Shown here: piece after piece, positions 25,588 to 52,963 of the stretch
Layout: each line of letters begins with the position of its first letter
How positions within the stretch are numbered: position 1 is the stretch's first letter
DNA from: Ignavibacteria bacterium
Lineage (GTDB): Bacteria; Bacteroidota; Ignavibacteria; Kapaibacteriales; UBA4661
Length of the DNA stretch: 64,000 bases
Assembly (NCBI GenBank): GCA_014654705.1
Contig: JACVZY010000104.1
Location: forward strand, 62,001-126,000
Reading direction: 5' to 3'
Notes under the pieces: model-generated
Databases searched by the model: none
What the model saw: the letters and a program-made list of their open reading frames with translations, nothing else
What the model was told of the DNA's origin: nothing
Translations under genes and position numbers: made by a program

Positions 25588-25589
25588 AT

Positions 25590-26279: not shown

Positions 26280-26409
26280 GGAGCGACGTAAAAATGAAGG
26301 TGAAAATCAAAGGATGGAAGCAACGAAGAATGGTTGTTGCCCACGCAGTACGAATTTACTAAATTGTTCCGCCTTTTGGACATTTCGGCACAACCTTTTC
26401 CCCAAAAGA

Positions 26410-29960: not shown

Positions 29961-30152
29961 GTGGTGTGATTTTTCCGTATTTCGATATGTCCGATGTTGA
30001 TATTGAGTACTGTGTTCTGAGGCTCTTGCTCTCTGGGAGAGGATTGGAGGAGGGAGGTGATGAAACACTTGTATGTACTCTGTTTCTCTCCATTTCTTTC
30101 CTTTATGCAGGAAGAATGCACAATGCTTGACCACCAGCCAATACGACACATT

Positions 30153-30196
30153 TTTTGGAATAGAATGATGCTTGTTTTGGAATAGAATGATGCTTG
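30153..30196 (+). repeat. Perfect 22-bp tandem duplication upstream of HK3
   Basis: ttttggaatagaatgatgcttg x2 (30153-30174, 30175-30196). Confidence 0.95.
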
Positions 30197-30222
30197 CGGC
30201 AACAAGAAAAATTATATCTTGC
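30194..30222 (+). promoter_or_regulatory. Candidate promoter TTG-N18-TATCTTGC for HK3
   Basis: TTG 30194-30196, 18-bp spacer, TATCTTGC 30215-30222; resembles Bacteroidota -33 / -7 (TAnnTTTG) architecture; ATG at 30261. Confidence 0.4.
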
Positions 30223-30260
30223 GTTCTAGCCACATCTGCTTTTGTTGTCTGTTCGTAATC

Positions 30261-32531
30261 ATGACTATTTTCTTCGTCATTCTTTTTGTTTGTTGTTCTC
30301 ATTTGGCAATGTACTCGCAAAGCGTGGACAGTGCTGCAATACCTCTTTCTCAAAAAAATGCCCTGCCGCTTCCGCAAACGACATCTATAACGCTTCGCAT
30401 CGGTAACGACATTGCTGCACTGCCTGAATTTGCCATTGTGGAAGATTCGACGCGCGGCCTGACCATTGAAGACATTATTCAGCAGAGCAATCGTTTTCTA
30501 CCCGCAGATAAGAGCCGCTCTTTACAATTTCCGCCAACCGATAATGCCCGATGGATATGCTTCAAGCTGCAGAATTATAGCGGGCAGACTCCCTGTTTGC
30601 TTATTGACGACACGGGTATAGACACCACGCAAACATTTACAGTTCGTCTATACGACACTTCAATAACACGCCGCACAGCAGGTCTCACTTTTTCGTCGAG
30701 CCACCTTAGGGGCTTGCCGCTTCGCGTTATTCCGCTTCTTGATGCTGCTCAAAATGCAGACACAAGCCAATATATTGTTTATGTGCGAATAGTGAGTCGT
30801 GAATTACTAGGGTTATTTTGCTCTATCGGTAGTACTCAAGCAATAATGTCCAAAACGCGCGAGCAGGATCTATTCAATACGTTTTGTATCGGTGTAATGG
30901 TGGCATTGGTATTGTATAATTTGTTCCTGAGCGTCTTTCTTCGCAGTATGCTTTACGCGGTCTATGTTTGTTATGGAAGTACGGCAGTACTCTATACACT
31001 CTATACCACAGGGCTGATTGTACCTTTTGTGGGAGAGCGCTTTACGGAGACTTTTGTGCAGGGGCAAGCAGTACCGATTGCCATGTTGGTTTTGGTCTAT
31101 AGTCTGCTCTTTACGATTTTTTTCTTGGAGATGCGTACCAAAATCCGCGTTTTCTGGATACCGTCGCTTGTGGTTTTAGGGTCACTTCTGAGTATTATCG
31201 TCTTTTGGTTTCTCGGGTTTCAGGGTTTTGTGTACTACGCATTGAATTTTGCGACTATGTCGGTGGTCATTATCTGTGTTGGTGCAGCAATCGTATCTGC
31301 CTGGCGTGGCAATCGCGGTGCCTTGATTTATCTGGCTGCGTGGAGTATATTGTTGTTGGTTTTTGTATTCGTTGGGCTGCTTGTGGGTGGTTTTCTTCCG
31401 CTCGAGCCGATCGTATTTGTGCTACCCCAAATAGGTTTTTCCAGTGAACTTTTATTGATGTCGCTTGCGCTTGCCTATCGTATTCGCATCTTGGAGAATG
31501 CGCGTCGGTCGGCATTGCTGGAAAATGAACGGATAATGCGCGAGCAAAACACACTGCTGGAACGTACTGTTCGGGAACGCACGTTGGAATTGGAGGATAA
31601 CAATCATCAGCTTTCGGCGGCAAATGAAGAAATACAGCGCCAACTGGAAATACAGACCGAGCAAGCTCGTGCTATCGAAATGGCGAACGCTGAACTACAA
31701 GTTGTGTCTGATAACCTTGCATCAGCCAATCAAGAACTTATTGGGAGTAATAAAGCGCAGGATATAGTGAACGCTCAACTGGCACAAAAAAATCAGGAAC
31801 TTGCTACCGCGGAGCAGTTCCGCCTAAATATGCTGAGTATTGTCTCCCACGACTTGAAATCACCCATTAGCGGCGTTCTTGGATTGAGTACTGTACTCTT
31901 GGATGATACGTCGCTTTCACCTCGCGTCCGTGAGGTGCTTGAGCATATTCACGATGCCGGGTCTCGGATGAACAGACTGGTCGTTGAGCTTCTGGATACC
32001 GCCGCACGAGAGATGGGGAAGATACAACTTTTTATGCAGCCTACCGAACTGCGAGAGATTCTTTCCGAGATTGTATCCCGTTATCGTGCCGCCGCCGCAG
32101 ACAAACAGCAGGCATTTATTTTTCCGGAAACGGGGGAATACTGGACAGTTGGTGATGCGCAGCGTATCGGGCAGGTGTTTGATAATATCATTAGCAATGC
32201 TGTCAAATACTCACCTTTAGGGGGGACGATCACGATTACACTTTCTGCATCGCGTGATATGGTGCGAGTGACGGTCAAAGATGAGGGCGTTGGATTCACA
32301 GACGATGATAAATCGAAATTATTCGGATTCTTCCAACGTCTATCAGCGCAGCCCACAGGAAATGAGTCTTCAAGCGGTGTCGGGTTGGCTATCGTGAAGC
32401 AAATTGTGGATGTGCATCAGGGGCGTGTGTGGGTGGAAAGCGACTATGGGAGCGGTTCAACGTTCATTGTCGAACTGCCGGCAGAAAACGAGAGAACAAT
32501 GGAACGTAAGCGCACGGGAGAAAAAAAATGA
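30261..32531 (+). CDS. 7TMR-DISM sensor histidine kinase (HK3), divergent core
   Basis: Likely start 30261; DISM-type extracellular domain (DNARWICFKLQNYSGQTPCLLIDD), 7TM, SHDLKSPISGVLG, GNESSSGVGLAIVKQIVDVHQGRVWVESDYGSGSTFIVELP. Confidence 0.9.
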   Translation: MTIFFVILFVCCSHLAMYSQSVDSAAIPLSQKNALPLPQTTSITLRIGNDIAALPEFAIVEDSTRGLTIEDIIQQSNRFLPADKSRSLQFPPTDNARWICFKLQNYSGQTPCLLIDDTGIDTTQTFTVRLYDTSITRRTAGLTFSSSHLRGLPLRVIPLLDAAQNADTSQYIVYVRIVSRELLGLFCSIGSTQAIMSKTREQDLFNTFCIGVMVALVLYNLFLSVFLRSMLYAVYVCYGSTAVLYTLYTTGLIVPFVGERFTETFVQGQAVPIAMLVLVYSLLFTIFFLEMRTKIRVFWIPSLVVLGSLLSIIVFWFLGFQGFVYYALNFATMSVVIICVGAAIVSAWRGNRGALIYLAAWSILLLVFVFVGLLVGGFLPLEPIVFVLPQIGFSSELLLMSLALAYRIRILENARRSALLENERIMREQNTLLERTVRERTLELEDNNHQLSAANEEIQRQLEIQTEQARAIEMANAELQVVSDNLASANQELIGSNKAQDIVNAQLAQKNQELATAEQFRLNMLSIVSHDLKSPISGVLGLSTVLLDDTSLSPRVREVLEHIHDAGSRMNRLVVELLDTAAREMGKIQLFMQPTELREILSEIVSRYRAAAADKQQAFIFPETGEYWTVGDAQRIGQVFDNIISNAVKYSPLGGTITITLSASRDMVRVTVKDEGVGFTDDDKSKLFGFFQRLSAQPTGNESSSGVGLAIVKQIVDVHQGRVWVESDYGSGSTFIVELPAENERTMERKRTGEKK

Positions 32532-34012
32532 ACCGAATGTGGTCATTTCTTCTTCGGAGCAGCGCAGAATCTATTCCTGAACGGTATCGGGATGAATTTT
32601 GGAGTGAGGTGATTTTCATTACCGCTCGGCGAATTCGTTCACTGCTGCTAGTGAGCTTAGGCGGGTATTCGTCGCTTATCTACCTTGTGAATATCCGCAA
32701 TGCCTTTCAGTTACCCGAAAGCGATAATCGGCTGGTGCTTATGATGCACGTTTCTTTGCTTGTCCTCAACATTTTTTCCCTTATTCTCATCTATGCTCGC
32801 CCGCTTCGTGCGCCCGCCGATGTCACCCCGTTTCATATTGGCGTACTGCGGTTCTTGGGAGTGGGTATTATAGTGAGTACCCAAGCCTTTACATATGTTA
32901 TCCTCAAGACAAGCGGGCACCCAATCTTTGTGTTTCTGGCAATTATCGTTTGGTGTTCGTCGTTACTGATGCCGCCCCGACTCTTGGCAGCCATTCTCAC
33001 GGTGATGGTCGCTGCCTTATGGGTAATCATGATTGTTTTTTCACCTCCCACCGATAATGTGCGCTTCGCAGCGGAGTCCTATTTTACCTCGTTTATGATC
33101 GCTGTTATTCTTATCACATCCGGTTCGCTGCTTTTTAGCCGTAATGCCGAAGCATTTCGGCAGCGCAAAATAGTAGAAGAAGAGCGCAACACGATTGCTC
33201 GATTGAATGCGGAAGCCTTCTCCCTCAATCAGGAGCTTCAGCGCCGCCAAGACGTGCTGGAACATCAGGCAACGGAAATCGAAATTATTAACACGCAGCT
33301 TCAAGAGCAAAATGAGACGCTCCGTGAGCTAGATATGGAGAAGAACGAATTGATGGGCATTGTGGCGCACGACCTCAAAAATCCCATTGGCGCGGTACGG
33401 AGCTTCGCAGACCTGATAGAGAGCGGCTTTGTTCCACCGGAAGATATGCCTCAAGCGCTAGGGCAAATTATTACGACAGCCGACCGAATGCTGGAATTGG
33501 TCACTAATCTTCTGGATGTCAATCGTCTGGATTCAGGCGGAATGCAGTTTCAAATGGTCGAGTTCGATGTCTCGGCGCTTGTGGAAGGCGTTGTGGAGCA
33601 TTTCCTGCAGCGAGCCGCCGCGAAGCAGATTGTGCTCCATTACAGCAATGAAGACGCCAATACTCTTATCTATGCCGACGAGCAAGCGATGATGCAAGTG
33701 CTGGATAATCTCGTCTCCAATGCCGTCAAATACTCACCGCATGGGAAAAATGTGTTTATTCGTCTGAAAACAAGTGATAGCGCCGTGCGTATGGAAGTTC
33801 AGGATGAAGGCGTAGGCATTTCAGCGGAGGACATGAAAAAACTCTTCGGCAAATTTACTCGTCTTGCGGCGCGACCTACGGGTGGCGAACACAGTACAGG
33901 TCTGGGCTTGAGCATCGTAAAAAAAATGGTGGAAGCGATGAACGGCAAGGTGTGGTGCGAATCGGAGTTAGGCAAAGGCGCGACGTTTATTGTGGAATTG
34001 CCACGTGCTTGA
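32528..34012 (+). CDS. Polytopic membrane sensor histidine kinase (HK4), paralogue of HK2
   Basis: Collinear with HK2 in the sensor region (SSAESIPERYRDEFWSEVIF vs NSAEAIPEQHRAEFWQEITF); AHDLKNPIGAVRS; GGEHSTGLGLSIVKKM; ATGA overlap with HK3. Confidence 0.92.
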   Translation: MNRMWSFLLRSSAESIPERYRDEFWSEVIFITARRIRSLLLVSLGGYSSLIYLVNIRNAFQLPESDNRLVLMMHVSLLVLNIFSLILIYARPLRAPADVTPFHIGVLRFLGVGIIVSTQAFTYVILKTSGHPIFVFLAIIVWCSSLLMPPRLLAAILTVMVAALWVIMIVFSPPTDNVRFAAESYFTSFMIAVILITSGSLLFSRNAEAFRQRKIVEEERNTIARLNAEAFSLNQELQRRQDVLEHQATEIEIINTQLQEQNETLRELDMEKNELMGIVAHDLKNPIGAVRSFADLIESGFVPPEDMPQALGQIITTADRMLELVTNLLDVNRLDSGGMQFQMVEFDVSALVEGVVEHFLQRAAAKQIVLHYSNEDANTLIYADEQAMMQVLDNLVSNAVKYSPHGKNVFIRLKTSDSAVRMEVQDEGVGISAEDMKKLFGKFTRLAARPTGGEHSTGLGLSIVKKMVEAMNGKVWCESELGKGATFIVELPRA

Positions 34013-34407
34013 TAATCTCGGACTCAAAAAAGAACCTTGAAGAACGCAAGGAGTAAAGTACACTGAAAAAATCTGCCCTCAAGCAACGCCAATCATACAA
34101 ATTTCGTTGTAGCAATGGTAGAAAAGTTGTAGAATAGAGGTCGTACAAACTCTATCGGTGTCGTTTCCATGATTATCCTGAGAACTCCGAAATTTTTACG
34201 CACCTTTGTAATAAAAAGCCCTGAAGATAAGACTACATCTTGTTTGCGTGGTTTTGATATGTGAAGGGCGGTTTTGTCTAAAACGCTTTCTACGCTAGAT
34301 TCTATCTGAGTTTGAGGTCCGTTAGATGACCTACGATTCTGTCAAATAAAGTTGTCATGTAGGTTAATCGCACTATTACTGCCTTTTTTCACGCCGGTTA
34401 TTTTGCT

Positions 34408-37400
34408 ATGTTTCATCGTTTTTTGTTTCCTCTCTTGCGCATTGCTGCATACCTTGTATTCTTCAATGCCCCTGTTGTATTGCCTTCCCAAGCACTGCAA
34501 ACAAATCCTGCTGCTTCACTCAAAACCTTGTATTTTGAACACCTCCCGACACCAAGCGTAGTGCAAAGCGTCGTTTACTCTATTGTGCAGGATTCGCGCG
34601 GTTTTATGTGGTTCGGCACAAAAGACGGTTTGTATCGGTATGATGGCTTACAATCAATGGTATTCGTCCATAATCCGCTTGATTCCTTGTCTATCAGCGA
34701 TAATCGTATCCTTAATGTCTATGAAGACCTCGACGGCGATTTGTGGATTGCGACGCAAGACGGCGGATTAAACCTTTTTCAACGCACAACAGCAACCTTC
34801 AAACGATACCAGCCCAAAAGCGGCAGTACAACAGCGATTCGGAGCAACCGTGTAGCCTTTGCTTATCAAGACCGTACAAAAATATTTTGGGTGGGTACAG
34901 AAAACGGACTGCATCGTTTTGACAAGAAGCAACAAGCGTTTACGCTGCTTTCATCCAATTTGAATGATTCTACATCGCTTCCGTCCAATTACATTCGGTG
35001 TGTTCTGGAAACGCAAAAAGGAGAATTGTGGTTCGGTACGGTTTTGGGTGGATTAGTGAGGTATAATCAGGCTTCCGGGACATTTACCACCTTCAAGCGG
35101 AATCCTCGTAATTCTCGCACCATTGCGGACAATACAATTCATGCAATGACCGAAGACGATAAGGGTATTCTTTGGCTCGGAACGGCACGCGGACTTAGCG
35201 CATTTAACCCCGCAACGGCTGAAGCGGTGAACTATCTCAATAATCCGACAAATAGCAACAGCCTCAGCGAAAATATTGTCTGGGATGTTGTTTTTACGCG
35301 CTCGCGGCAGCTTTGGGTCGGCACACAAAACGGACTCAATCTTTTTCGACCCGAAACGCAAGATTTTATGAGGTTTACGGAGGATATTGTCAATATTGAC
35401 AATGGCAAACTTCCGAACAGTTATGTCAATGCCTTATACGAAGATGCACGTGGTCGTTTGTGGGTTGGTATGTACGGTGGCGGGGTGAGTATCATTGACC
35501 CCTTCAAGCGGAAATTCGATATTGTGCGGCGCAACGTCTTGCAAAACCATCTTCGCACCTTGCCGGACAATAATATCTGGGCTGTGTATCAAGACAATAA
35601 CTCCCTTGTCTGGATAGGTACTGTTCATGGACTGGCGGCATATAATCCACAAACAAAGGAAATACGAGCTTTTCATACCGATACGGTCAAATTTGGTTCG
35701 ATGAGTGATAATATCAATTTTCTCACGGGTGATTCCAAAGGCAAGATTTGGTGCAGTACCTACGGCGGTGGGATTAATGTCTTCGATGCTTCCAAAGGGA
35801 AATATATTGCACACTATGGCTATGAGGAGGGTAATCCTCGCAGTCTTCCAAATGACCGCGCAACGGTAGTGTATTGTGCAAAAGACAAGCAAATGTGGGT
35901 CGGAACAGTCAATGGTGCTTGCCGCTTTGTTCCAAAAACAAATGACTTTGAACCGGAGTACACAGGGCTGAAAGGCTCTTCACGGCTTACGCATCAGACG
36001 ATTAAGTATTTTTTCGAGGATTCCAAAGGGCGCTTTTGGATTGGGACGGCAAGCGGACTGAATTTGGTTGATCGCGCAACCGGCAATATCACCAGGTTTA
36101 AGGGCATTCCTACGGACACGACGACGCTTTCGCACAATAACATTCGGCAGATACTCGAAGATGCAGAGCATCGTATCTGGATTGCAACGTCGGGCGGCTT
36201 AAATTTACTCATCGAACCCGTTTCAGGTAAGGCTGAAGATATATCCTTTCGACGTATCACCACCGCCAACGGTCTTCGGAACAATCTTGTTTCCGGTGTG
36301 CTTACCGACAGTCGAAATATGCTCTGGATTCCTCACGGTGCGGGCATTTGTTCGTTCGACCCCGTATCATTTCGTGTTGTACGGGAGTTTGATACTGAAG
36401 ATGGTTTGCAAGGGCAGGAATTTCGTGCAACGGCTATCACGAATCTGCGCGGTGGCGGGATGTTCTTTGGCGGCGCAAACGGTTTTAATCTGTTCACGCC
36501 CAGTTCTCTCAGCATGGACTCAACCATTCCGCGTATAGTGCTGACTAATTTTAAGGTACTCAATCAAGACCGACGGTTGCCCGTCCATATCACCGAAGCT
36601 CGTGAAATCACACTTTCGTATAAAGATTATATTTTTTCGTTTGAATTTGCCGCACTGGATTTCACCAATTCTACAAAAACCCGCTATGCCTACAAAATGG
36701 AAGGGTTCGACCAAGAATGGGTACAAAATGGTAATCTCCGAAGCGCAACCTATACGAATCTGAAGGGCGGCGAATATACTTTTCGTGTCAAAGCGAGCAA
36801 CCACGACGGTGTGTGGAATGAAGAAGGTATTGCACTGAAGGTCATTATCGTACCGCCGTTTTGGGAAACATGGTGGTTTCGCGGAGCAGGCGTTTGTGTG
36901 CTTTTGGGAATAATCGTTGTCGGAATAGGCTTGCGCGAACGAGGTATCAAGCGGCAGAACGTACTTCTGGAAGCAATGGTCGCTGAACGTACATCCGCGC
37001 TCAAGGTCAGTAACAATCAGCTTTCTGAGGCAAATGAGCAACTTCGTTTGGCGAACGTAGAAAAAAATGAATTTTTGGGCATTGTTGCGCATGATTTGAA
37101 AAATCCGCTTTCGACTATTCAACTTGCGGCAAATTTCATGCACAAAAACACGGACAGTTTGCGGGACAAGGATATTCAGGAAATGTCCGGTGATATTTTG
37201 ATTACGTCTAATCGAATGTTCGACCTCATTACCAACCTGCTGGATGTCAATAAGTTGGAACAAAATGCGATTACGTTTTTGCCTACGAGCATAGATATTG
37301 TGGGGCTTGTACGTCGCTCCGTTATGCAATATACACCTCAGGCGGATGCAAAAGCCTTACACTTCCGCGTAGAATGTGCCGATGAGAGCATCATTGCATA

Positions 37401-37740
37401 TGTTGACGAAAGCGCAACAATGCAAGTGATGGATAATATTATCTCGAATGCCGTCAAATACTCACCAGAAGGAAAAAATATCACTATTCGCTTACAATCA
37501 CGTGCCGGAGTCGTCCGCATGGAAGTGCAGGACGAAGGCGAAGGAATTTCGCCGGAAGATATGCAAAAACTCTTCGGTAAATTTGTGCGGCTCTCGGCAC
37601 GTCCCACAGGCGGCGAACACAGCACGGGTCTGGGTTTGAGTATCGTAAAAAAAATGGTCGAAGCCATGCAGGGGCGCGTATGGTGCGAATCGGAACTTGG
37701 CAAGGGAGCAACGTTTATCGTGGAATTGCCTTGCGTTTGA
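34408..37740 (+). CDS. Reg_prop/Y_Y_Y beta-propeller sensor histidine kinase (HK5)
   Basis: Signal peptide; repeats such as DLDGDLWIATQDGGLNLF; Y_Y_Y-like TRYAYKMEGFDQEW; AHDLKNPLSTIQL; GGEHSTGLGLSIVKKM. Confidence 0.93.
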   Translation: MFHRFLFPLLRIAAYLVFFNAPVVLPSQALQTNPAASLKTLYFEHLPTPSVVQSVVYSIVQDSRGFMWFGTKDGLYRYDGLQSMVFVHNPLDSLSISDNRILNVYEDLDGDLWIATQDGGLNLFQRTTATFKRYQPKSGSTTAIRSNRVAFAYQDRTKIFWVGTENGLHRFDKKQQAFTLLSSNLNDSTSLPSNYIRCVLETQKGELWFGTVLGGLVRYNQASGTFTTFKRNPRNSRTIADNTIHAMTEDDKGILWLGTARGLSAFNPATAEAVNYLNNPTNSNSLSENIVWDVVFTRSRQLWVGTQNGLNLFRPETQDFMRFTEDIVNIDNGKLPNSYVNALYEDARGRLWVGMYGGGVSIIDPFKRKFDIVRRNVLQNHLRTLPDNNIWAVYQDNNSLVWIGTVHGLAAYNPQTKEIRAFHTDTVKFGSMSDNINFLTGDSKGKIWCSTYGGGINVFDASKGKYIAHYGYEEGNPRSLPNDRATVVYCAKDKQMWVGTVNGACRFVPKTNDFEPEYTGLKGSSRLTHQTIKYFFEDSKGRFWIGTASGLNLVDRATGNITRFKGIPTDTTTLSHNNIRQILEDAEHRIWIATSGGLNLLIEPVSGKAEDISFRRITTANGLRNNLVSGVLTDSRNMLWIPHGAGICSFDPVSFRVVREFDTEDGLQGQEFRATAITNLRGGGMFFGGANGFNLFTPSSLSMDSTIPRIVLTNFKVLNQDRRLPVHITEAREITLSYKDYIFSFEFAALDFTNSTKTRYAYKMEGFDQEWVQNGNLRSATYTNLKGGEYTFRVKASNHDGVWNEEGIALKVIIVPPFWETWWFRGAGVCVLLGIIVVGIGLRERGIKRQNVLLEAMVAERTSALKVSNNQLSEANEQLRLANVEKNEFLGIVAHDLKNPLSTIQLAANFMHKNTDSLRDKDIQEMSGDILITSNRMFDLITNLLDVNKLEQNAITFLPTSIDIVGLVRRSVMQYTPQADAKALHFRVECADESIIAYVDESATMQVMDNIISNAVKYSPEGKNITIRLQSRAGVVRMEVQDEGEGISPEDMQKLFGKFVRLSARPTGGEHSTGLGLSIVKKMVEAMQGRVWCESELGKGATFIVELPCV
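37474..37730 (+). repeat. 257-bp exact duplicate block, copy 1 (HK5 3' end)
   Basis: Base-for-base identical to 40994-41250 (constant offset 3520). Confidence 0.97.
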
Positions 37741-37882
37741 AATAGCAGAACAAACTTGTGTTTACAAGCCAATTTTCTTATCTTCCCTTCGGTGTATTGT
37801 CCTGCATTCCACCTGCCCCGATTATTCCTTGCTTTGCGACCGTATCGTTTATTCCTATCTAACGAATTCACCAAGAACCACA

Positions 37883-40800
37883 GTGATTAAATTGCAACAA
37901 AAGACATGGTTGTATGCGCCTTTGGTGTGCCTCGTTTTTTTCAAGATAACGATGGTCGTTTCTGCACAATACAAGCAGGAAAATAAGCCCTCCTTCAATG
38001 CGGCGTACAGGGCTATTAAGGGAAATACCGTAAAAGCAAGTGTGCCGTCTCTCACGCCGACATTTATTCGGAATTTCAGCGTTGAGCATTTTGCGAGCGC
38101 CCAAGGTTTTGCCAACGAGGGCGTAAAAAGTATTCTCCAAGACCGACATGGTTTTTTATGGGTACTCACCGAACGGTCATTGTACCGCTACAACGGGCAA
38201 AGTTTTCGGTGCTATCTTTCCAATGCTCAAGATTCTACGGCTCTTTTGCCGCACCCTTATGGCAATGGCGGGCTGTACGAAGACCGCGACGGTACGCTCT
38301 GGATAGCGTGCCTCAACGGTTTGCAGCGTTATGATGCACGGCGTGATTGTTTTGTTCGTGTCTCTTTAGGAGCTTCGGCATCTTCATCTCTTACTCCTGC
38401 CGATATCACGGCAATCAATGGCGACAAGGCAACAGGAAATCTGTGGCTTGGCGTCGGCGAAGAAGTCTGGTTGTTTCATCCCGCTACACGTCGTGTTTTG
38501 AGGCGTTATGTTTTGCCTCGTTCCGGTGGTACGGAGCGACGGAATGTTCACTCGCTTACGGTGGACAGTTTGGGGCGTGTCTGGGCTACACGCTGGGATG
38601 ACCACATCGTTTCGATGCTGGAAAGTTCCACGCAAGAATTTCATACGGTGCTTCAGTTACCTTTTGAGTCTGTGTCTGGTTCCGTATGTGTGCATCAGGA
38701 TTCTTTGTGGGTCGGCTCCATCAATGGTGTTCTGCTTTACAGTATTAGGGAGCGCCGAATGCTTACCTCGTATGCACTGTCCAATCATTTTTCCCTGAGC
38801 GCCCCTGCGCCTCAAGTGTCGCAAGTGATTCCGTTTGATTTTTGCCGAGACAATGAAGGGCGCATTTGGGTGGCTACGTGGCAGGGGCTAGCGCTGATTC
38901 ATCCGCGTCGTGAGGGCGTACAATTTTTCCGCCATGAGCCGTTGAACGAGCGAAGTCTCACGACAAACAATATCAATACCATATATCAAGACCGTTCAGG
39001 AATCATCTGGATTGGCGAAGCAGTCTATGGGTTGCATAAATACACACCGCTTAAATATAAATTTCAACTTTATCGCCATAATCCTTTCAACGACCAAAGC
39101 CTGAGTAATAACTACATTCGTGGAATACTGGAAGACCATCGCGGCAATCTCTGGATTGGTACGCAGTTTGGCGGTTTGAATATGCTGGAGCGCGCCACAG
39201 GAAGGTGGACGCATTTTCGCTATGATTCCACGCGCCCACGCAGCCTCACTTCCGACCATGTTCGTGGTTTGTGCGAAGACCGCAATGGCATTCTTTGGGT
39301 GGCGCTGCATGAAGGTTGGCTTTGCTCAATAGATACGAGGCATCCTGAGCGGGGATTTACCCATCATATATTTGCAGAACGAAGTTTCAAAGCGCAGTGC
39401 TTGTATGAAGACCGCGAGGGATATTTGTGGATTGGCACTTCGACTAGTCAAGCCGCTTTGTACAGGCTCTCGCCCGACCGTAAAGCAGTTGAATTCATGC
39501 ACAAAACGCACCTCATGCCTTCCGGCATTGCCGAGATGGAACATATCATGGAAGACCGTACTGGTGCTGTTTGTATAGCCACAACCGGTGGTCTGCTTCG
39601 TTATGATCGTGGTAAGCGTACTTTTCGTCTCTTTCAGCATAATGTGGGTGATTCGACATCACTGCCGAACAATTTTGTTACGCATATTACCGAAACACGC
39701 TCCGGCGAACTCTGGATGGCAACAAAAGGCGGGGGTATTTGCCGCTTTCACCCGACAACAGAGACGTTCAGCACTATATCGGTGCGCGAGGGACTTCCGC
39801 ATGAGAATTGCTATGCGATAGTGGAGGACGAGCAAGGAAACTTCTGGATAAGTACCGATAATGGCTTATGCCTTTATTCGCCAAGTCGTAAGACGCTTCG
39901 CCGCTTTGGTGAGGAAGAAGGCTTGCAGGGCGACGAATTTAACCGTTTTGCACATTTTCGCAGCAAAAGTGGCGAAATGTTTTTTGGTGGTGTTGACGGT
40001 TTGAATAGCTTTTTTCCGAGTGATATTCGCATCAACACGATTCCTCCTAAGCCGGCAGTCGAGCGGGTTCAGTCTATCGCTGGTGTGTTGCTGGCAGACA
40101 ATATATCGCTTCTGGCGCGGCAAACCGTAGAGATTCCACCGCAAACGGGATTTATGGTGGATTTGGCGGCATTGGAATTTACCGTCCCCGAAAAAAATTG
40201 GTACTCATGGCATTTGGACGGTGTAGATACGGCATGGTCGCCCGAAAGCACCGCGAGCCATCACCATCAGGCTCTTTACACCAATCTTGCGCCGGGCGAG
40301 TACACGTTTCGGCTGCGCGTTGCCAATGCCGATAAGGTCTGGAGCAAAGATGACCTCACGCTTGCGATAGTCGTTCTGCCGGCATGGTGGCAAACGTGGT
40401 ATGCACGAGTAGGATTTACGCTGGGGCTGGTAGGATCGGTTTTTCTGCTGTTGCGCTGGCGCGTGCGCACGATTGAAGCGCGGTCGAGAGCATTGCAAGC
40501 ACTCGTTCACCGGCGCACGGAAGAACTACTCGAAAGTAATGAGGAACTGCAAACCACCAACGAGCGCTTATCCACGCTCAATATGGAAATGCAGGAAATT
40601 ATTGGTATTGTCTCGCATGACCTCAAAAATCCGATTACCGCCATTCGCGGTCTTTCCGAGCTTGTTCATAGCGGATTCTCGGAAGGTGAGCAGATAAAGG
40701 AGATTTCGATGCAGATTTCGCGGACTGCCGACCGTATGATGGAACTTGTCAAAAACATTCTGGACATCAATCGCTTGGAATCAGGTTTGATGCACATGAA

Positions 40801-41260
40801 CATCGTTACATTCAGCATTGCGCCAATAATTGAAAACACCCTGTGGGCTTTCATCGAGCCAGCCGCAGCGAAAAATATTACCGTGCACTTCAGTAATGAA
40901 GCGCCCGACGCTCTTGTTCGGGCAGATGAACAGGCGATGATACAGGTTTTGGACAATCTTATTTCTAATGCCGTCAAATACTCACCGCAAGGGAAAAATA
41001 TCACTATTCGCTTACAATCACGTGCCGGAGTCGTCCGCATGGAAGTGCAGGACGAAGGCGAAGGAATTTCGCCGGAAGATATGCAAAAACTCTTCGGTAA
41101 ATTTGTGCGGCTCTCGGCACGTCCCACAGGCGGCGAACACAGCACGGGTCTGGGTTTGAGTATCGTAAAAAAAATGGTCGAAGCCATGCAGGGGCGCGTA
41201 TGGTGCGAATCGGAACTTGGCAAGGGAGCAACGTTTATCGTGGAATTGCCAAAGGCATAA
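37883..41260 (+). CDS. Reg_prop/Y_Y_Y beta-propeller sensor histidine kinase (HK6)
   Basis: ORF 37697..41260 overlaps HK5; GTG at 37883 (VIKLQQKTWLYAPLVCLVFFKITMVVSAQ) gives a plausible signal peptide; propeller repeats; SHDLKNPITAIRG; GGEHSTGLGLSIVKKM. Confidence 0.88.
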   Translation: MIKLQQKTWLYAPLVCLVFFKITMVVSAQYKQENKPSFNAAYRAIKGNTVKASVPSLTPTFIRNFSVEHFASAQGFANEGVKSILQDRHGFLWVLTERSLYRYNGQSFRCYLSNAQDSTALLPHPYGNGGLYEDRDGTLWIACLNGLQRYDARRDCFVRVSLGASASSSLTPADITAINGDKATGNLWLGVGEEVWLFHPATRRVLRRYVLPRSGGTERRNVHSLTVDSLGRVWATRWDDHIVSMLESSTQEFHTVLQLPFESVSGSVCVHQDSLWVGSINGVLLYSIRERRMLTSYALSNHFSLSAPAPQVSQVIPFDFCRDNEGRIWVATWQGLALIHPRREGVQFFRHEPLNERSLTTNNINTIYQDRSGIIWIGEAVYGLHKYTPLKYKFQLYRHNPFNDQSLSNNYIRGILEDHRGNLWIGTQFGGLNMLERATGRWTHFRYDSTRPRSLTSDHVRGLCEDRNGILWVALHEGWLCSIDTRHPERGFTHHIFAERSFKAQCLYEDREGYLWIGTSTSQAALYRLSPDRKAVEFMHKTHLMPSGIAEMEHIMEDRTGAVCIATTGGLLRYDRGKRTFRLFQHNVGDSTSLPNNFVTHITETRSGELWMATKGGGICRFHPTTETFSTISVREGLPHENCYAIVEDEQGNFWISTDNGLCLYSPSRKTLRRFGEEEGLQGDEFNRFAHFRSKSGEMFFGGVDGLNSFFPSDIRINTIPPKPAVERVQSIAGVLLADNISLLARQTVEIPPQTGFMVDLAALEFTVPEKNWYSWHLDGVDTAWSPESTASHHHQALYTNLAPGEYTFRLRVANADKVWSKDDLTLAIVVLPAWWQTWYARVGFTLGLVGSVFLLLRWRVRTIEARSRALQALVHRRTEELLESNEELQTTNERLSTLNMEMQEIIGIVSHDLKNPITAIRGLSELVHSGFSEGEQIKEISMQISRTADRMMELVKNILDINRLESGLMHMNIVTFSIAPIIENTLWAFIEPAAAKNITVHFSNEAPDALVRADEQAMIQVLDNLISNAVKYSPQGKNITIRLQSRAGVVRMEVQDEGEGISPEDMQKLFGKFVRLSARPTGGEHSTGLGLSIVKKMVEAMQGRVWCESELGKGATFIVELPKA
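40994..41250 (+). repeat. 257-bp exact duplicate block, copy 2 (HK6 3' end)
   Basis: Identical to 37474-37730; identity stops exactly before the last codons of each gene. Confidence 0.97.
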
Positions 41261-41430
41261 ATGCGGATGGAGGGAAAATTCAAGACGACGAGAAGATACA
41301 ATGTTGTAAATTCACGTGTCTATTTCTTTTTCGCTTGGCGTGTCGTATCTTGCAAACGCCACAACAATGCATTTCTCATCCTTCGATTGATGTGCAAACG
41401 TACACTTCATTCCTCTCAACGGCTCAGCGT

Positions 41431-43599
41431 ATGAAATCTTTGGTTCTTTTTGGGTTGGTGATTACTTGTCTGATATTCGTGCAATGGGAAAGAGTATATG
41501 CACAAACCCCAACGATTGATTCGCTGGAAAAAGAGCTCCGACGCGGTGGAAAGTCGGACTCCGCACGATTATATCTCTTCTTCCATTTGTCGTATCACCT
41601 CAATAATCTTAATCCGGTTCGTTCGGAAGAATATGCTCGCTCGGCAATAGAACTGTCTCAAAAACTCCGTTTTCGGAAGGAGCTAGCACGGGCATATCGC
41701 TATACAGGCGTGTCGCTACAGATGAGAGCATTCCATCTGCAAGCGCTTAGGTACTACGATTCGTCTCGTAGTATTGCCGAAAGCATTGACGACAAGGAAG
41801 CCATATCGGCAGTCTGGACGAATATGGGGCTTCTCTATGAATCGCAGGGCGATTATCCACGAGCCTTAGACTATGCTCTCCGTGCTTTACGAATAGACGA
41901 GGACTTGAAAAAAAAGGATGCTATCGCTAACTCTCTGTCCAATATCGGTACGCTTTATTACCATCAAAAGGAATACACAACAGCCTTACATTACTACGAA
42001 CGCTCAAAAGGCTTCATAAATGCTGCCACCGACCCTGAGCTAGTCTCAGAAATATGTTACGGCGTTGGTCGAATTTACAAAGACCGTACAAATTTTGACC
42101 AAGCACTAAGGTATTTCGATACAGCGCTGGTGATTGCCAGAATAAACAGTAACGACAGACTGATAGGTATCATTACGCTTGATATTGGCTCCACCCATTT
42201 GCTTCGCGGGGAAATTGCATCTGCAAGAGAGTATTTGCAAGAAGCCTTGAGCGTTCAACAAAAAAGGCAAGATAAAGCCGGTATTGCTAAGGCGATGGCA
42301 GTATTTGGTCATTATTATTTATCGCGTGCCGAGCTTTCTAAAGCCGAAGAATACTGTACGGCATCATTGCGACTTGCCGATGAACTGGGCTTAAAAGAAA
42401 CGCAAATGGAGGTTTGTCGATATTTGGCAGAACTCTACAAACAGCAGGGACAGTTGAAGAAAGCACTGGAGTACAAAGAGCGCGAACTTGCCTGTAGAGA
42501 TTCGCTGGTGAGCGCTGAGCGAAGCAAGGAAATAGGTCGCTTGGAAATGCGGTATCAATTAGAGCAGAAAGACACCGAGAACCAACTGCTCCTGCGTGAC
42601 CGTGCATTGCGGGAGGCAAATGAATCTCGTTCACAGCTATTGCTCATTGCGCTCAGTGTAGTGCTTCTTTTAAGTTTGGGTATTACCTTGGTGCTTTGGC
42701 AATTTGGCAATAAACAGCGCCATATCAACGCCGAGCTACAGCGCCATCAAAATCCTGTCGAAGAACAGGCACGAAAGATAGAAATGGTGAATACGGAGCT
42801 GCAAGACCGGAATATTTTGCTGCTTGATGCCAACAAAGAACTGCAAAGTGCGTACACACAAATTCATCATCAGTCCAAATCTTTACAGGAGCAAAATCTG
42901 GCATTAGAACAGCTTGGTAACGAAAAAAATGAAATTGTGGCTATTGTGGCACATGACCTGAAGAACCCTATTATCGCAATACGCGGGCTTTCTGAACTCC
43001 TAGACGAGGAGTTTGCCGAAGGTGAGCAGGCGAAGGAACTTAACGCTCAGATTTCCCGAACTGCCGAGCGGATGCTAGGGCTTGTTAAGAATGTCCTCGA
43101 TATGAACCGTTTGGAGTCAGGAGCAATACAAATGAAAATTGTCGCTTTCGATGTGAAGCCACTCGTTGAAAACGTTCTTTCGACGTTCATGGAGCAGGCT
43201 GCGGCGAAAGCAATTACGCTGCATTTTCAGGGTGAATTGCATAATATCCTCGTGCTGGCAGACGGGCAAGCCGTAATGCAAGTTATAGAGAACCTTATCT
43301 CCAATGCCCTCAAATACTCGCCGTATGGAAAGAATGTGTTTGTTTGCCTGAAAGCGGTTGATGCCTACGTGCGTATAGAAGTACGCGATGAAGGTCCTGG
43401 TATTAGTCAAGACGATATGAAAAAACTTTTTGGGAAATTTGTCCGCCTCTCTGCTCGCCCCACCGGTGGCGAACACAGCACAGGTCTGGGTTTGAGCATT
43501 GTCAAGAAAATGGTCGAAGCCATGAACGGCAAAGTATGGTGTGAATCGGAACTTGGCAAGGGAGCGACGTTTATCGTGGAATTGCCTGCGGTAGTGTAA
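41431..43599 (+). CDS. TPR-containing sensor histidine kinase (HK7)
   Basis: Likely start 41431 (MKSLVLFGLVITCLIFVQWERVYAQ); TPRs; AHDLKNPIIAIRG; GGEHSTGLGLSIVKKMVEAMNGKVWC. Confidence 0.92.
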   Translation: MKSLVLFGLVITCLIFVQWERVYAQTPTIDSLEKELRRGGKSDSARLYLFFHLSYHLNNLNPVRSEEYARSAIELSQKLRFRKELARAYRYTGVSLQMRAFHLQALRYYDSSRSIAESIDDKEAISAVWTNMGLLYESQGDYPRALDYALRALRIDEDLKKKDAIANSLSNIGTLYYHQKEYTTALHYYERSKGFINAATDPELVSEICYGVGRIYKDRTNFDQALRYFDTALVIARINSNDRLIGIITLDIGSTHLLRGEIASAREYLQEALSVQQKRQDKAGIAKAMAVFGHYYLSRAELSKAEEYCTASLRLADELGLKETQMEVCRYLAELYKQQGQLKKALEYKERELACRDSLVSAERSKEIGRLEMRYQLEQKDTENQLLLRDRALREANESRSQLLLIALSVVLLLSLGITLVLWQFGNKQRHINAELQRHQNPVEEQARKIEMVNTELQDRNILLLDANKELQSAYTQIHHQSKSLQEQNLALEQLGNEKNEIVAIVAHDLKNPIIAIRGLSELLDEEFAEGEQAKELNAQISRTAERMLGLVKNVLDMNRLESGAIQMKIVAFDVKPLVENVLSTFMEQAAAKAITLHFQGELHNILVLADGQAVMQVIENLISNALKYSPYGKNVFVCLKAVDAYVRIEVRDEGPGISQDDMKKLFGKFVRLSARPTGGEHSTGLGLSIVKKMVEAMNGKVWCESELGKGATFIVELPAVV

Positions 43600-43680
43600 A
43601 TTATTGGTTACAGGTCAGGTTCCAAGGTATTGTGAACGCGGACAGCGCGTTGGTAGCCGATACGAGCAGGTTTGTGAAGG

Positions 43681-43793
43681 AGGGACTTTCGCAAACAAAC
43701 TGGAGTACGAACGGGAGTTCGCATAAATACTGCCTTCGCCTTGTCAACCGAACTTCCGTTCGGACTCTCAAAGAGCATCTTTGCGAAAGCCCT
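43681..43793. repeat. Dispersed inverted-repeat intergenic element, copy B
   Basis: Outer arms AGGGACTTTCGCAAA (43681-43695) / TTTGCGAAAGCCCT (43780-43793); inner arms GAGTACGAACGGGAGTTCG / CGAACTTCCGTTCGGACTC. Confidence 0.75.
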
Positions 43794-43819
43794 AAGAGTG
43801 ATGAACAGGCACGGAAGAG

Positions 43820-43851
43820 TTTGCCAAGCAGAGCATAATGTTGTACATTTG
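43820..43851 (+). promoter_or_regulatory. Candidate Bacteroidota-type promoter TTTG-N20-TACATTTG for HK8
   Basis: TTTG 43820-43823, 20-bp spacer, TACATTTG 43844-43851; matches the -33 TTG / -7 TAnnTTTG pattern. Confidence 0.55.
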
Positions 43852-43927
43852 CTTGTCTTTCGTCAAATCATTCTGGGACTGCGAACATCAAATTCCCCGA
43901 AGTCCGCTTGCAGAGTCGTGTTGATGA

Positions 43928-46147
43928 ATGTTTTTCATCCAAATTTGTTTGCCATTCTTGGGAAAATCTGCCCGCAACCAAAGGTCAATAACACCCATGC
44001 CCAGATACTTCCGATATTTCTGCAACTTAGCTTTCTTCAATAGAACATCATTCCTTACTTCGCTACGGTATGTTCTGCTGTTATGGTTGTGGTGCGTGTC
44101 TTTGCAAATAGCGACGGCACAGTCTCCGTCTCCGTCCGTGTCAGTCATTTACCCGCAGATACGCCATAGCAGCCTTGTTGCCTCTACTGAGTATTTGCGC
44201 GACCCTTCACGCCATCTTTCCTTATCGGATATTCTTCAGCCCACGTATTCGCGTGCATTTCGGCAAACGACTTCCGAATCGCTTGTATTTGGCTGGACAC
44301 GTGATGCAGTCTGGTTGCGAACAAGCCTTCGTGCTGTCAATAAAGCAGAAGCGCTTTCGTGGGTCTTGGATGTTGGCTTTATGAGTTTAGATTCCGTATC
44401 ACTTTTTGTACCCGTAAGCGGCGGAAGCGCAAATGGTGCAGGCGCAGAGAGTGCAAGCGCAGGCGGTGTAGCATGGCGTGAACTGCGTTCGGGCGGAAGT
44501 GTTCCGTTTGCCATGCGCGACGAGCGATATGCCAGAGTGATGTTTCCTCTGACTTTGCCATCACAAGACTCCGTGCTAACGGTGTATGTGCGCATAGTGG
44601 CGACCAACAGTATGTATTTGAATATGTTTCTTACGGAGCGCCGGACGCTTGAGAACAGCCTAGAAGAACATAATCTCATTATCCTACTGTTGCTTGGCGT
44701 TATGGTATCGGCATTACTGTACAATGCAGTCATGTTCGTCTCAATGCGTGATAAACTCTACGGTTATTATATTTTCTACACCGCAAGTGTGATTTGTTCC
44801 TATACGACCATTCACGGGCTGGTGATAAAGCACTTTGTTCCTGTACTTGTGCCGTATATCGGTTCTATCATTCCCGTTTCGTTTTTCCTCACCTACATTG
44901 GGGCATTGCTTTTTGGTAAGGAATTTCTTCTCACAAGTCGCTTTGCGCCACGTTTTGAGCGCTTCATGGTGTATTCGGCTTGGTGTCTTGGCTTGTGTAT
45001 TCTGCTGGTGCTGGCGATGCCGTCCGTGGGGTGGATCATACCGATTGCCACCGCGTCGGCGAATGGCGTGTTGCTCGTAGCGGCGTTTCTTTCTGCGCGA
45101 AAAGGGTATCGTCAAGCGTGGTTTTATCTGGCTGCGTGGTCTATGTTCTTGTGTGGAGCTACGTATTTTGGTTCTGTTTCCTCGGGACTCATTGTCGCCG
45201 ACACAACGCCCGTCTTTGCTGTTTTGACAGCAAGCACCGCCTTTGAACTGACAATGTTTTCGTTTGTGCTGGCGTATCGGTTCCGCCATTTACGCGATGA
45301 TATTCGTGCCGCCGAGCGGGAACGACAATTTGCCGAGCAGCAGCGCGAATGGGAGCATCGGCAAAATCTGGAACTTCTTGCAGAAAAAAATAAAACCGAA
45401 GACCTCAATGCCCAACTTCGCGCCAGCAACAGCGAAAAAAGCGAGATTCTGGGTGTTGTCGCGCACGACCTTCAGAATCCTCTGACGAGCATCATGCTCA
45501 GTGGGGAAATTCTCACCGACCTTGTTGCTAAACGCCACTACGACAGTGTTCCGCGAGTGGTCGATAATATCAACGTCGTCGCGGTACAAATGTTGGAGAT
45601 TGTACGAAATTTACTCAATGTAAATCTTCTGGAGTCCGGCGTGCTCACGCTCCGTCAGGAAACCTTCGATATTGTGCCAATACTGCATCGGGCGATTGAG
45701 CAGTACGCTCCGGCGGCACGTGCAAAAAATATCACGCTTCATCTTCGCGCCGAAGAAGCACACACTATGGTTCTTGCCGATAGCCAAGCAGTAGCAAGGG
45801 TTTTAGACAATCTTCTTTCTAACGCCATTAAGTATTCGCCGCAGAAAAAAAACGTTTATGTTCGCTTACAAGCTGCTCAGAATGCGGTTCGCGTGGAAGT
45901 TCAGGACGAAGGCGCAGGTATTTCGCCGGAGGACATGAAAAAACTTTTCGTCAAGTTTGCCCGTCTTTCGGCAGTTCCTACGGGCGGCGAACACAGTACG
46001 GGATTGGGACTGAGCATCGTTAAAAAAATGGTCGAGGCAATGAACGGGCGTGTATGGTGTGAGTCGGGAGTGGGAGACGGTCTTTCGTCCGGCGCGACGT
46101 TTATTGTCGAACTGCCTGCGGCTGCAACGGTGGGAGCAACAGCATGA
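43928..46147 (+). CDS. 7TMR-DISM sensor histidine kinase (HK8)
   Basis: DISM extracellular domain (FGWTRDAVWLRTSLRAVNKAEALSWVLDVGF), 7TM, AHDLQNPLTSIML, GGEHSTGLGLSIVKKM; start may be 43997. Confidence 0.92.
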   Translation: MFFIQICLPFLGKSARNQRSITPMPRYFRYFCNLAFFNRTSFLTSLRYVLLLWLWCVSLQIATAQSPSPSVSVIYPQIRHSSLVASTEYLRDPSRHLSLSDILQPTYSRAFRQTTSESLVFGWTRDAVWLRTSLRAVNKAEALSWVLDVGFMSLDSVSLFVPVSGGSANGAGAESASAGGVAWRELRSGGSVPFAMRDERYARVMFPLTLPSQDSVLTVYVRIVATNSMYLNMFLTERRTLENSLEEHNLIILLLLGVMVSALLYNAVMFVSMRDKLYGYYIFYTASVICSYTTIHGLVIKHFVPVLVPYIGSIIPVSFFLTYIGALLFGKEFLLTSRFAPRFERFMVYSAWCLGLCILLVLAMPSVGWIIPIATASANGVLLVAAFLSARKGYRQAWFYLAAWSMFLCGATYFGSVSSGLIVADTTPVFAVLTASTAFELTMFSFVLAYRFRHLRDDIRAAERERQFAEQQREWEHRQNLELLAEKNKTEDLNAQLRASNSEKSEILGVVAHDLQNPLTSIMLSGEILTDLVAKRHYDSVPRVVDNINVVAVQMLEIVRNLLNVNLLESGVLTLRQETFDIVPILHRAIEQYAPAARAKNITLHLRAEEAHTMVLADSQAVARVLDNLLSNAIKYSPQKKNVYVRLQAAQNAVRVEVQDEGAGISPEDMKKLFVKFARLSAVPTGGEHSTGLGLSIVKKMVEAMNGRVWCESGVGDGLSSGATFIVELPAAATVGATA

Positions 46148-49100
46148 GCAATGATATAAAAATATTTCCTGCCGGTGCTGATGCAATGCGCTCTCTGCTT
46201 TGGGGGGGGCTTGCTGCTCTTATTTTGCCAATTGCCCTTTACGCCCAAGACCAAGCGCCGCCATACCTGAACCCTGATAAAGACCCCACGCAATATATTC
46301 ACAAAGTCTGGCAAACCGAACAGGGATTACCCCAAAATTCCGCGTACGCGCTGTGCCAGACCCGCGACGGATACCTATGGATTGGTACTGCCGAAGGCTT
46401 AGCTCGCTACGATGGTGTCCGCTTCACTGTATTCGACAAAAATACCACCCCCGCGCTTACAAGCAACTGGATTTCCTCTCTGGCAGAAGGCAGCGACGGT
46501 AGGCTGTGGATAGGCACTCGTGCCGGAGTGCTCTCGTATCGTAACGGCGTGTTCAGAAATTATTCTACCGAAGGCAAATTGCCCAAAACTCTGATTCGCT
46601 CGCTTCTCGTTGACCGCAATGGCGGGCTGTGGGTGGGAACAAACGGTAGTGGGCTGCATTACCTCAGTACTGAGCAGCAGAAGGCTCCTCAAGGCAGCGA
46701 CGCAAGGGAATATAAGGGTCGTGAAGGTGTAGAAAAAGGCTTTGAGAAAGGTTTAGAGAGCGGTGTTGTGCTGTCGCTTGCGCAAACCAACGACGGCGCT
46801 GTGTGGGTAGGGATGCAGAATGGAGGCTTGTATCGGCTTCATAAGGGCATTACCACTCACTTCGGTGTACAGGAGGGACTGCCCAATGTGGCTGTTCGCG
46901 TCGTACTGCCGGATCGCGATGGGCGTTCCGTGTGGATTGGTGCTTTTGACGGTTTGTATTGCCTTCGTGAGGGTGCCGTATCGCGCTTTGTCGGCAAAAA
47001 TGCGCTTGCCGGAAGTAGTATTCAATGCTTGCTCCAAGAGAGTAATGGTACGCTTTGGATTGGTTCATACGGCGGTGGTCTGCATCGTCTTAGAGACGGC
47101 GTTTTTACGGCGTTCACCACTTTGCAGGGCTTATCGAATGATATTGTGCAGAGCCTCATCCAAGACCGTGAGGGCAGTCTGTGGATTGGCACATTTGGCG
47201 GTGGGCTGAATAGGTTGCACGATGGCGCATTCACAAGTTATACTCCGAAGCAGGGGCTTTCCAATAAGTTTGTCAATGCCGTGCTGCGTGATGAGCGCGG
47301 TGTTCTCTGGGCTGCCACCAATGGCGGTGGTCTGAACCGCATGGAACGTGGCGCTTTTACGAAATACACCAAAGAAAATGGTTTGCTGAATGATGTTGTT
47401 GCGTCGCTTCTATCGCACAACGGTACGCTATGGATTGGTACTGCCGGAGGCTTGAACCGCTTGTACAACGGGCGGTTGACGGGGTACAGTATGCGGGATG
47501 GCTTATCAAGTAATTCCGTCTGGACGCTCTTGCACGATAGCGATGCCCAAAAAGGTGAAAGCGTGATTTGGTGCGGTACGCAGAACGGTTTGAATCGTTT
47601 CCAGAATGGGGTTTTCACAAAATATACCAAAGAAAACGGCTTGTCGAATAATGTTGTGCTGTGTCTCCGAAAAGACCGCCGCTCAAGTATCAGTGCGGTT
47701 GCGGGCGCAGATGCAGCCTTGTGGATAGGCACACAAAACGGCTTGAACAAACTGCACAATGGCGTAATTACTCACTACACCACCCGTAACGGTATGGCGA
47801 GCGATTTTATTTGGACGATGTATGAGGACGACGAAGGTGCGCTTTGGCTGGGGACGACAGGAGGGCTGCACCGCCTTAAGAATGGTGTATTTACTGCCAT
47901 TACAACGAAAAATGGTTTATTCGACGACCTCGCCTTTTCGATTGTGGAAGACGATTTCGGGTGGTTCTGGATGTCCTGCAATAAGGGTGTGTACCGTGTG
48001 CGTAAAGCAGACTTGAATGCGGTTGCCGATGGGAAACGAGAGCGAATTTCTTGTGAATCATTCGGTACTGCCGATGGTATGGCGAGTGCTGAATGTAACG
48101 GCGGTTCGCCGGGCGCGTGGAAGGATGCGGATGGGCGTTTGTGGTTTGCGACCATAGCAGGTGTGGCGATGGTGAATCCTCGAAATTTACACACCAATAC
48201 GCTTGCGCCCCTCGTGATGGTGGAGAGCATCAAAGTGGACTACAATGAGCGTATTCTCTCGGAGAGCAAAGTGCGTGATGCTTCATATACTGCCAATACT
48301 GAGATTGTCGTACCTCCGAACACTGAAAAGTTTGAATTTCGTTACACCGCCACAAGTCTGCTAGTGCCGGAACGTGTACAGTTCAAGTATATGCTCGAAG
48401 GTTACGATAAGGATTGGACAGAAGCGGGGACGCGCCGCGTGGCGTATTACAACAATCTTCCGCGCGGACGGCACTACCGTTTCCGTGTGCAAGCCTGTAA
48501 TAACAGTGGGATTTGGAGTACGACCGACGGAGAAGTATCATTTTCGCTGGAATCATTTTTCTACGAAACATGGTGGTTCCGTATAGCCTGTGGGCTTGCG
48601 TTCTTTGGTGTGCTTGTCGCTGCGGTGCGTTCACGGCTGCATATTCTCCAACGGCGGGCAACGTTGCTCGAAAAAGCCATTCAAGAGCGCACAAGTGAGC
48701 TTGCATCTTCTAACGAAGAATTGCAAGAAATAAATCGGATGCTGGAAATGCTAAATGCTGAAAAAAATGAACTACTGGGTATTGTGTCGCATGACCTGAA
48801 GAATCCTATTGGTGCGGTGCGCGGGCTTGCTGAACTCTTGCAAAGCGGTTTCCTGACCGAAGAACAAGCTCCCGCCATAGTGTCGCAGATTGTAACGACC
48901 TCTAATCGTATGTTAGATTTGGTAGAAAACTTGCTGGACATTAACCGACTAGAATCCGGCGGAATACAGTTTGTAATGATGGAACTTGATGTAGAACCCA
49001 TTCTCCTCGGCGAAATGAATATTCATCGCGCTGCAGCCGACGCAAAAAATATTACGCTGCATTACAGCAAAGAAGCCACGCATACGGTCATTTCTGCCGA

Positions 49101-49455: not shown

Positions 49456-49542
49456 TTTTGTGTCTGTTTTGGCTGAAATGTCAGTGCTTCTATCATTTTT
49501 GGTCATCATCGTAATTCGCTTATCTCCCTATCTACTTCTATT

Positions 49543-50079
49543 ATGGCACAACGACCCACACCAAATAATAAGGAACGTGTTCTCAATGAGCATGATTTTA
49601 TCGTGTCAAAAACCGATACGAAAGGTATTATCAAATATGGCAATCAGATATTTATCGAAATGTCAGGGTATTCCGAGAGCGAACTTATCGGTGCAAATCA
49701 CAATATCATCCGCCATCCCGATATGCCGCGCTGTATTTTTAAGTTTCTTTGGGATACATTGGCGGCAAAGCAAGAAGTCTTTGCTTTTGTCAAGAACCTG
49801 AGCAAAGACGGCTCGTATTACTGGGTTTTCGCCAATATTACGCCGTCATTCGACTCAAATGGTGCAGTGGTGGGGTATTTCTCCGTGCGGCGTAAACCCA
49901 AGTCTGCTAGTATCAAAGTAATCACCGAACTGTATGCAAGGCTGCTTGCCGAAGAACAGCGCGTCGAAGCAGGGCAAGCATCCCGTAGGAAAGAAGCGAT
50001 GGCTGCCTCCGTTGCTCTGCTCACAGAATTTCTCCACTCAAAAAAACTCAGCTATGAAGAATACATCCTTAGCCTCTAA
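49543..50079 (+). CDS. Stand-alone Aer-like PAS domain protein
   Basis: [56 protein letters not shown]...[14 protein letters not shown]. Confidence 0.88.
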
Positions 50080-51664: not shown

Positions 51665-51794
51665 CCTGCGAACAATCCGTAACGGACATTGCACAGGGCA
51701 AGGCTGCCGCCGTTGCATTGGAACAGCCCTCAAACTGCATCGTGAAATAAAGAAGTCAAAATGTGATTATCTCATCCATATCCGGCAGAATTGT

Positions 51795-52655: not shown

Positions 52656-52684
52656 AAATCTTGTGTATATCCTGTGCACGATAG

Positions 52685-52795
52685 TACCTACGAAAAAGAA
52701 CGGAAGCGCAAACGGGAGTTCGTATGAATACTGATTGTTAAGTGCCCGCGCGCGCGAACCTCCGTTCGGACTCCAAAAACTTTGCCTCGTAAGTT
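52685..52795. repeat. Dispersed inverted-repeat intergenic element, copy C
   Basis: aacgggagttcgtatgaatactg ... gcgaacctccgttcggactcc, right end tcgtaagttct shared exactly with copy A; contains (CG)5 at 52747-52756. Confidence 0.65.
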
Positions 52796-52963
52796 CTCAC
52801 CGTTACGATGACAAAATATGCGTCGCTATGCTTTGTAAATCGTTATGAGAATGTTACCTTTGTTGATTACAACCACACAACAAGTGTCGGTGAACTGTAT
52901 GCGATATTGCTCTCTCAACTTCGCTCATTCTCCTTTCTCAAGAGGCGATTTCTGCACAATTTC

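Follow-up and report, generated by a model that had tools for sequence, protein, structure and literature searches.

Organization of the kinase array

The window analysed here, a 64,000-nucleotide stretch of the genome designated G000, carries an array of 13 co-oriented histidine kinases, whose principal features are collected in Table 1. Two adjacent members, HK5 and HK6, match HisKA, HATPase_c, Reg_prop and Y_Y_Y domains above the Pfam cut-offs. The open reading frame of HK6 as listed opens at 37697, and a start somewhat 5' of the tabulated one would give a predicted signal peptide. HK5 has an orthologue in G001, the genome of a sister species (G001:C374:354-3686), that is 91% identical in DNA over the whole gene and lies in a syntenic neighbourhood, G001:C374 being syntenic with window positions 20015-37740 save for gained or lost kinases. 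Relative to 26206-37740, this contig (L072) has one additional kinase, whose orthologue in G000 lies on contig C8; the match to C8 already starts within the core of the kinase that precedes the additional one, a pattern expected from recombination at cores.

Table 1. Positions of the kinase genes and of the shared CA-domain block in the window.
Feature	Position	Strand	Composition and basis
HK5	34408..37740	+	Reg_prop propeller and Y_Y_Y sensor, HisKA (DHp), HATPase_c (CA); Pfam; likely donor
HK6	37955..41260	+	Reg_prop and Y_Y_Y sensor, HisKA, HATPase_c; Pfam, ORF list; likely recipient
HK7	41434..43599	+	TPR sensor, HisKA, HATPase_c; Pfam
Array of 13 co-oriented histidine kinases	26206..63306	+	ORFs, repeats; extends downstream on the contig (contig matches)
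Block copy 1	37474..37730	+	CA domain of HK5; exact identity, 257 bp
Block copy 2	40994..41250	+	CA domain of HK6; exact identity, 257 bp
Possible outer tract edge, N-box DNA	37447..37473 (about)	+	24/27 bases in common with HK6, codon alignment

Within the array there is one receiver-domain match (59063-59416), and most of the kinases are orphans by position. The genome as a whole holds a large signalling set, with about 150 HATPase_c and about 130 receiver-domain matches in 5.7 Mb. The gap between HK7 and HK8 contains an imperfect inverted repeat of about 112 bp (43683-43794), dispersed and MITE/REP-like, with strong predicted folding (z -4.5); seven copies at 91-94% occur in G001, and several weaker ones in G000 and G009. 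Several kinase cores, moreover, contain in-frame insertions that differ in length but share a single position, past the N-box and before the following conserved motif, some of them with short repeats of TNDQ type; examples are found in G007:C66 (L086) around 8508, 10921 and 18607 and in the window kinase 55336-57480, among others.

Extent and exceptionality of the identical block

By direct base comparison, the CA-coding blocks of HK5 and HK6 agree at 257 of 257 bases at an offset of 3520, and in both genes the block stops 10 bp short of the gene end. Beyond it on the 3' side, identity drops to 43% and then to 31% per 100 bp (ungapped), while on the 5' side similarity fades through the conserved N-box into a diverged DHp; in codon alignment, the two genes are 47.4% identical over the DHp as against 98.0% over the CA core, and their sensors are 26% identical in protein. 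The first-pass annotation had described exact identity that includes synonymous sites, a clearly diverged DHp-coding flank, and an end just before the last codons, and all three points were borne out. It had also counted matching 75-aa shadow open reading frames as independent evidence; these are implied by the block identity itself and thus follow automatically from it, so they were dropped as separate support.

The exceptional position of this pair becomes apparent against a set of 154 kinases of the same subfamily, drawn from G000 and from five congeneric relatives. Among roughly 2,350 within-genome pairs of this set, which was gathered mainly through core DNA similarity and is thereby biased toward similar cores, mean identity is 67.7% (sd 6.8) for the CA core and 47.5% for the DHp, and HK5/HK6 is an extreme outlier, its near-identical core being combined with an ordinary DHp value. 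A first set of 1014 within-genome pairs had a median exact run of 17 bases; HK5/HK6 headed it with 257, followed by a pair with 98. A GENECONV-like test in which variable sites were permuted across the 13 kinases of the window, a check proposed together with the original claim, gave the same picture: the HK5/HK6 run comprises 176 variable sites and scores 86.5, whereas no permutation exceeded 18.6 (p = 0.001, the floor with 1000 permutations). The block is also the longest direct repeat in the approximately 305 kb of G000 that were read. A run of 257 bases is far beyond chance.

Mosaic structure of HK6 and probable direction of copying

The DHp and the core of HK6 point to different relatives. 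The nearest DHp to that of HK6 belongs to HK7 (64% in nucleotides), the cores of these two kinases being 76% identical, and in the DHp tree HK6 falls in a two-row set with support 97, to which HK7 is the nearest row. A clade of HK5 and HK6 is rejected on the DHp (p-AU 0.002), whereas on the core the two are sisters with support 99/85, so that tract and flank yield discordant phylogenies. With a DHp closest to that of HK7 and the core of HK5, HK6 is therefore a mosaic. Among close orthologues of the HK6 sensor, the one with its 3' end present lies on G007:C88 (56% aa identity), a contig that matches the MAG Candidatus Kapaibacterium sp. Prado071; the core of this orthologue ranks 28th of 28 in similarity to the HK6 core, that is, least similar, and a grouping of the two on the short core is not rejected (AU p = 0.14).

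The direction of transfer was probably from HK5 to HK6, a reading that leans on the single G001 orthologue of HK5. The HK5 core is 88% identical to that of its orthologue over the first two thirds, seven bases that are rare elsewhere are common to the HK5/HK6 core and the orthologue, and the motif ITIRLQSxAG is confined, among the cores listed, to HK5, HK6 and the G001 orthologue; these features suggest HK5 as the donor. Over the last third of the core, the orthologue is closer to other cores and lends no support to HK5 as donor. A core clade of HK5, HK6 and the G001 orthologue was weakly supported, with an SH-aLRT value of 15 in a quick tree, and was not rejected in a careful one (p-AU 0.48).

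Probable gene conversion and competing explanations

Over the 58.7 synonymous sites of the block, HK5 and HK6 differ by no change at all, which bounds dS at 0.051 or less (95%). Since the G001 orthologue stands at a gene-wide dS of 0.34, which serves as the clock, the copying would date to at most about the last 15% of the time since the G000/G001 split. Taken together, the abrupt limits of the identity, the low dS, the divergence of the G001 orthologue and the mosaic composition of HK6 support the recent gene conversion proposed in the first-pass annotation, and we regard it as highly probable that the block arose by recent conversion, most likely non-reciprocal and with the CA DNA of HK5 copied over that of HK6.

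Such conversion may have proceeded by homologous recombination of the RecA type that was seeded in motifs conserved among CA domains and had a non-crossover outcome. CA-domain DNA is the most similar stretch between neighbouring genes and sits at the 3' end of each, and the clearest tracts begin at the N-box, just beyond the DHp, where homology (47%) is presumably too low for a tract to continue. Were recombination at these sites resolved by crossover instead, entire kinases would be lost, duplicated or exchanged; entire kinases do distinguish the G000 array from that of G001. Since the DHp governs the choice of partner and determines response-regulator specificity (PMC2991266), replacement of a CA domain should leave the wiring intact; CA domains may thus act as interchangeable ATP-binding modules, with conversion limited to them being tolerated and pathway insulation preserved.

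The strongest competitor, although unlikely, is that the sensor and DHp of HK6 entered the array by recombination inside the CA DNA of HK5, for example through a circle or unequal crossing over, in the manner of Rhs cores and tips, in which case the second core would be a duplicated target rather than an overwritten one. The state of G001 fits such an insertion: its syntenic HK5 is followed by no HK6 sensor within the 353 bp that remain before the contig end, none is found elsewhere in this 97% complete genome, a C8-type kinase stands between HK1 and HK2, and HK3 and HK4 are absent from the syntenic stretch. A simple crossover, however, yields no second identical copy without repair synthesis, the grouping of the HK6 DHp with that of its present downstream neighbour HK7 suggests old residence, and elsewhere in the genus cores depart from what sensor and DHp predict with no new gene needed.

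It is considerably more improbable that an assembler merged two similar 3' ends. The assembly is fragmented, in 118 contigs, and probably metagenome-derived, its named close relatives being MAGs; yet the two copies retain different flanks on both sides, which merging of a graph bubble would not produce, no other near-identical pair occurs among 116 G000 kinases even though many of their cores are 75-82% alike, and a weaker case of the same kind is present in the assembly of another species (G001:C350). As a repeat of 257 bp can exceed the length of a short read, the link of each copy to its 3' flank, from the last 10 bp onward, is the least certain part of the structure.

Two further explanations retain next to no probability. 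Strong purifying selection on the DNA, or a hidden overlapping feature, might hold the block identical, an idea to which the antisense 75-aa shadow frames and the conserved CA motifs lend some colour and which had been named as the outcome that would overturn the conversion reading; within the block, however, 35 of 257 bases separate the G001 orthologue from HK5 and 23 of 85 codons carry synonymous changes, with a dS (NG86) of 0.60 compared to 0.34 in the rest of the gene, so the block is free to change, and other within-genome core pairs are only about 46% identical at codons for the same amino acid. Constraint at the DNA level is ruled out by the G001 orthologue. Likewise, a recent tandem duplication of a whole kinase followed by replacement of sensor and DHp, suggested by the tandem position of two Reg_prop/Y_Y_Y kinases, scarcely merits consideration and was rejected on sensors at 26% and DHp at 47%, far too diverged for a duplication with dS under 0.05; the HK6 sensor, in addition, has an orthologue of its own in G007.

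Recurrence in related genomes

Beyond HK5/HK6, the recurrence of conversion was assessed by a neighbour test that compares kinases inside the 154-kinase set, covering 80 adjacent co-oriented pairs in related genomes with HK5/HK6 left out. The cores of adjacent pairs are more alike than under shuffled gene order (p = 0.0002). With the comparison restricted to codons that encode the same residue, core identity amounts to 0.523 for neighbours, 0.472 for other kinases on the same contig and 0.459 across contigs (p = 0.0002); the DHp, likewise without HK5/HK6, exhibits no neighbour effect (0.425, 0.421 and 0.406; p = 0.46). Common descent through tandem duplication would raise similarity in the DHp as well as in the core. 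The wider set of 116 G000 kinases points in the same direction, with 0.649 for neighbours against 0.565 in the core and 0.465 against 0.441 in the DHp.

Individual cases accompany this general signal. The second clear one is the adjacent pair 4618/6371 of G001:C350 (core 92.9%, DHp 45%, run of 98), in which the tract begins at the same N-box position as in HK5/HK6; high core identity is also found between G007:C131 51962 and C70 3063, on different contigs (90.8%), and between 67370 and 73369 of G005:C8 (84.7%). The window kinase 61168-63306 compares with G001 at 92% in the sensor, 86% in the DHp and 74% in the core, the latter ranking 8th of 34, and the closest match to its core is found in the kinase next downstream.

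The descent of the domains was followed further in 143 directed pairs of sensor orthologues. Here the sensor orthologue also has the best-matching DHp in 98 pairs and the best-matching core in 37, and the rank of the DHp is better than that of the core in 93 and worse in 12, part of this gap being saturation in distant pairs. Where sensors are at least 70% identical (n = 50), the DHp is the best match in 48 of 50 pairs and the core in 32 of 50.

Regarding secondary tracts, none was significant one by one in a run test on the core with third positions permuted, a procedure that is blind to conversion spanning the whole core, and a GENECONV-like test on DHp plus core picks out many secondary pairs, a result inflated by the lower rate of change in the core. 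Given these flaws of both run tests, reliance is placed on the neighbour test with its DHp control. Altogether, recurrent, local, core-restricted conversion between neighbouring kinases in the genus is supported. The homogenisation described as ongoing in the first-pass annotation accordingly stands as a recurrent local process in related genomes, though not as the sole cause of the uniform cores.

Uniformity of the kinase cores

How far conversion accounts for the uniform cores of the array is limited by a comparison across genomes. Mean core identity of non-orthologous pairs is 67.6% when both kinases come from one genome and 67.0% when they come from two; cores of one genome are thus not clearly more alike, as concerted evolution of the whole family would require, and the homogenising effect is confined mainly to neighbours. 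Core uniformity is therefore mostly a matter of protein constraint and ancestry, the GGEHSTGLGLSIVKKMVEAM...GATFIVEL core being kept mainly as protein across the genus, and the evidence supports conversion as a source of local, episodic homogenisation on top of this constraint. As a mechanism for the uniform cores, conversion consequently retains a local contribution and not the role of main cause. Core similarity does increase with array size (Spearman 0.56); since DHp similarity rises too (0.32), this trend is confounded with recent expansion.

Implications and comparison with known systems

HK5/HK6 offers a case of gene conversion limited to one domain of arrayed kinases, with a date and defined ends, accompanied by a measurable signal across the genus. 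On a broader level, there is perhaps an even chance that arrays in this Kapaibacterium-like genus evolve as two decoupled layers, in which sensor and DHp descend together and the CA domain is time and again replaced from a neighbouring kinase. With equal reserve, sensor and DHp may be seen as keeping pathway identity, the CA domain as a shared, locally homogenised module, and the repeated CA DNA as the joint at which kinases are gained and lost. If general, such behaviour would mean that two histories are confounded whenever trees or orthology of histidine kinases are based on whole genes, and that the DHp/CA boundary marks where swapping is tolerated without cross-talk.

In the titles and abstract openings listed for gene conversion, domain shuffling and concerted evolution of histidine kinases, no CA-domain conversion in arrays is mentioned, and the match for Kapabacteria together with histidine kinases is, judging by its abstract, a salt-lake microbiome survey. 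Segmental gene conversion between bacterial paralogues has been described for ntrX and its partial duplicate in Ehrlichia ruminantium (PMC9937504). Both systems involve copying, non-reciprocal there and most likely so here, between nearby copies of two-component genes, after which part of a gene is closer within the genome than to its orthologues; the ntrX case concerns an inverted partial duplicate of a response regulator, whereas HK5 and HK6 are intact, co-oriented kinases, and the process concerns many loci but a single domain.

A second parallel is offered by Rhs elements, in which core and tip are decoupled through homologous recombination at conserved cores (PMC2935791). There, as in the kinase arrays, a conserved part that recombines evolves apart from the variable domain attached to it; Rhs elements, however, exchange their tips and accumulate dissociated ones, while in the kinase arrays it is the conserved CA domain that appears to be overwritten, and no dissociated kinase fragments were noted.

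In myxobacteria, lineage-specific expansion and domain shuffling of histidine kinases have been discussed (PMC4603909). The resemblance lies in large kinase families with changing sensors, and gene conversion has been named as a possibility in kinase-rich genomes (PMC4603909). That study differs in that it defined orthologues by the entire gene and considered direct shuffling to be rare (PMC4603909), whereas a recent tract ending inside a gene, together with a neighbour effect specific to the core, was measured here.
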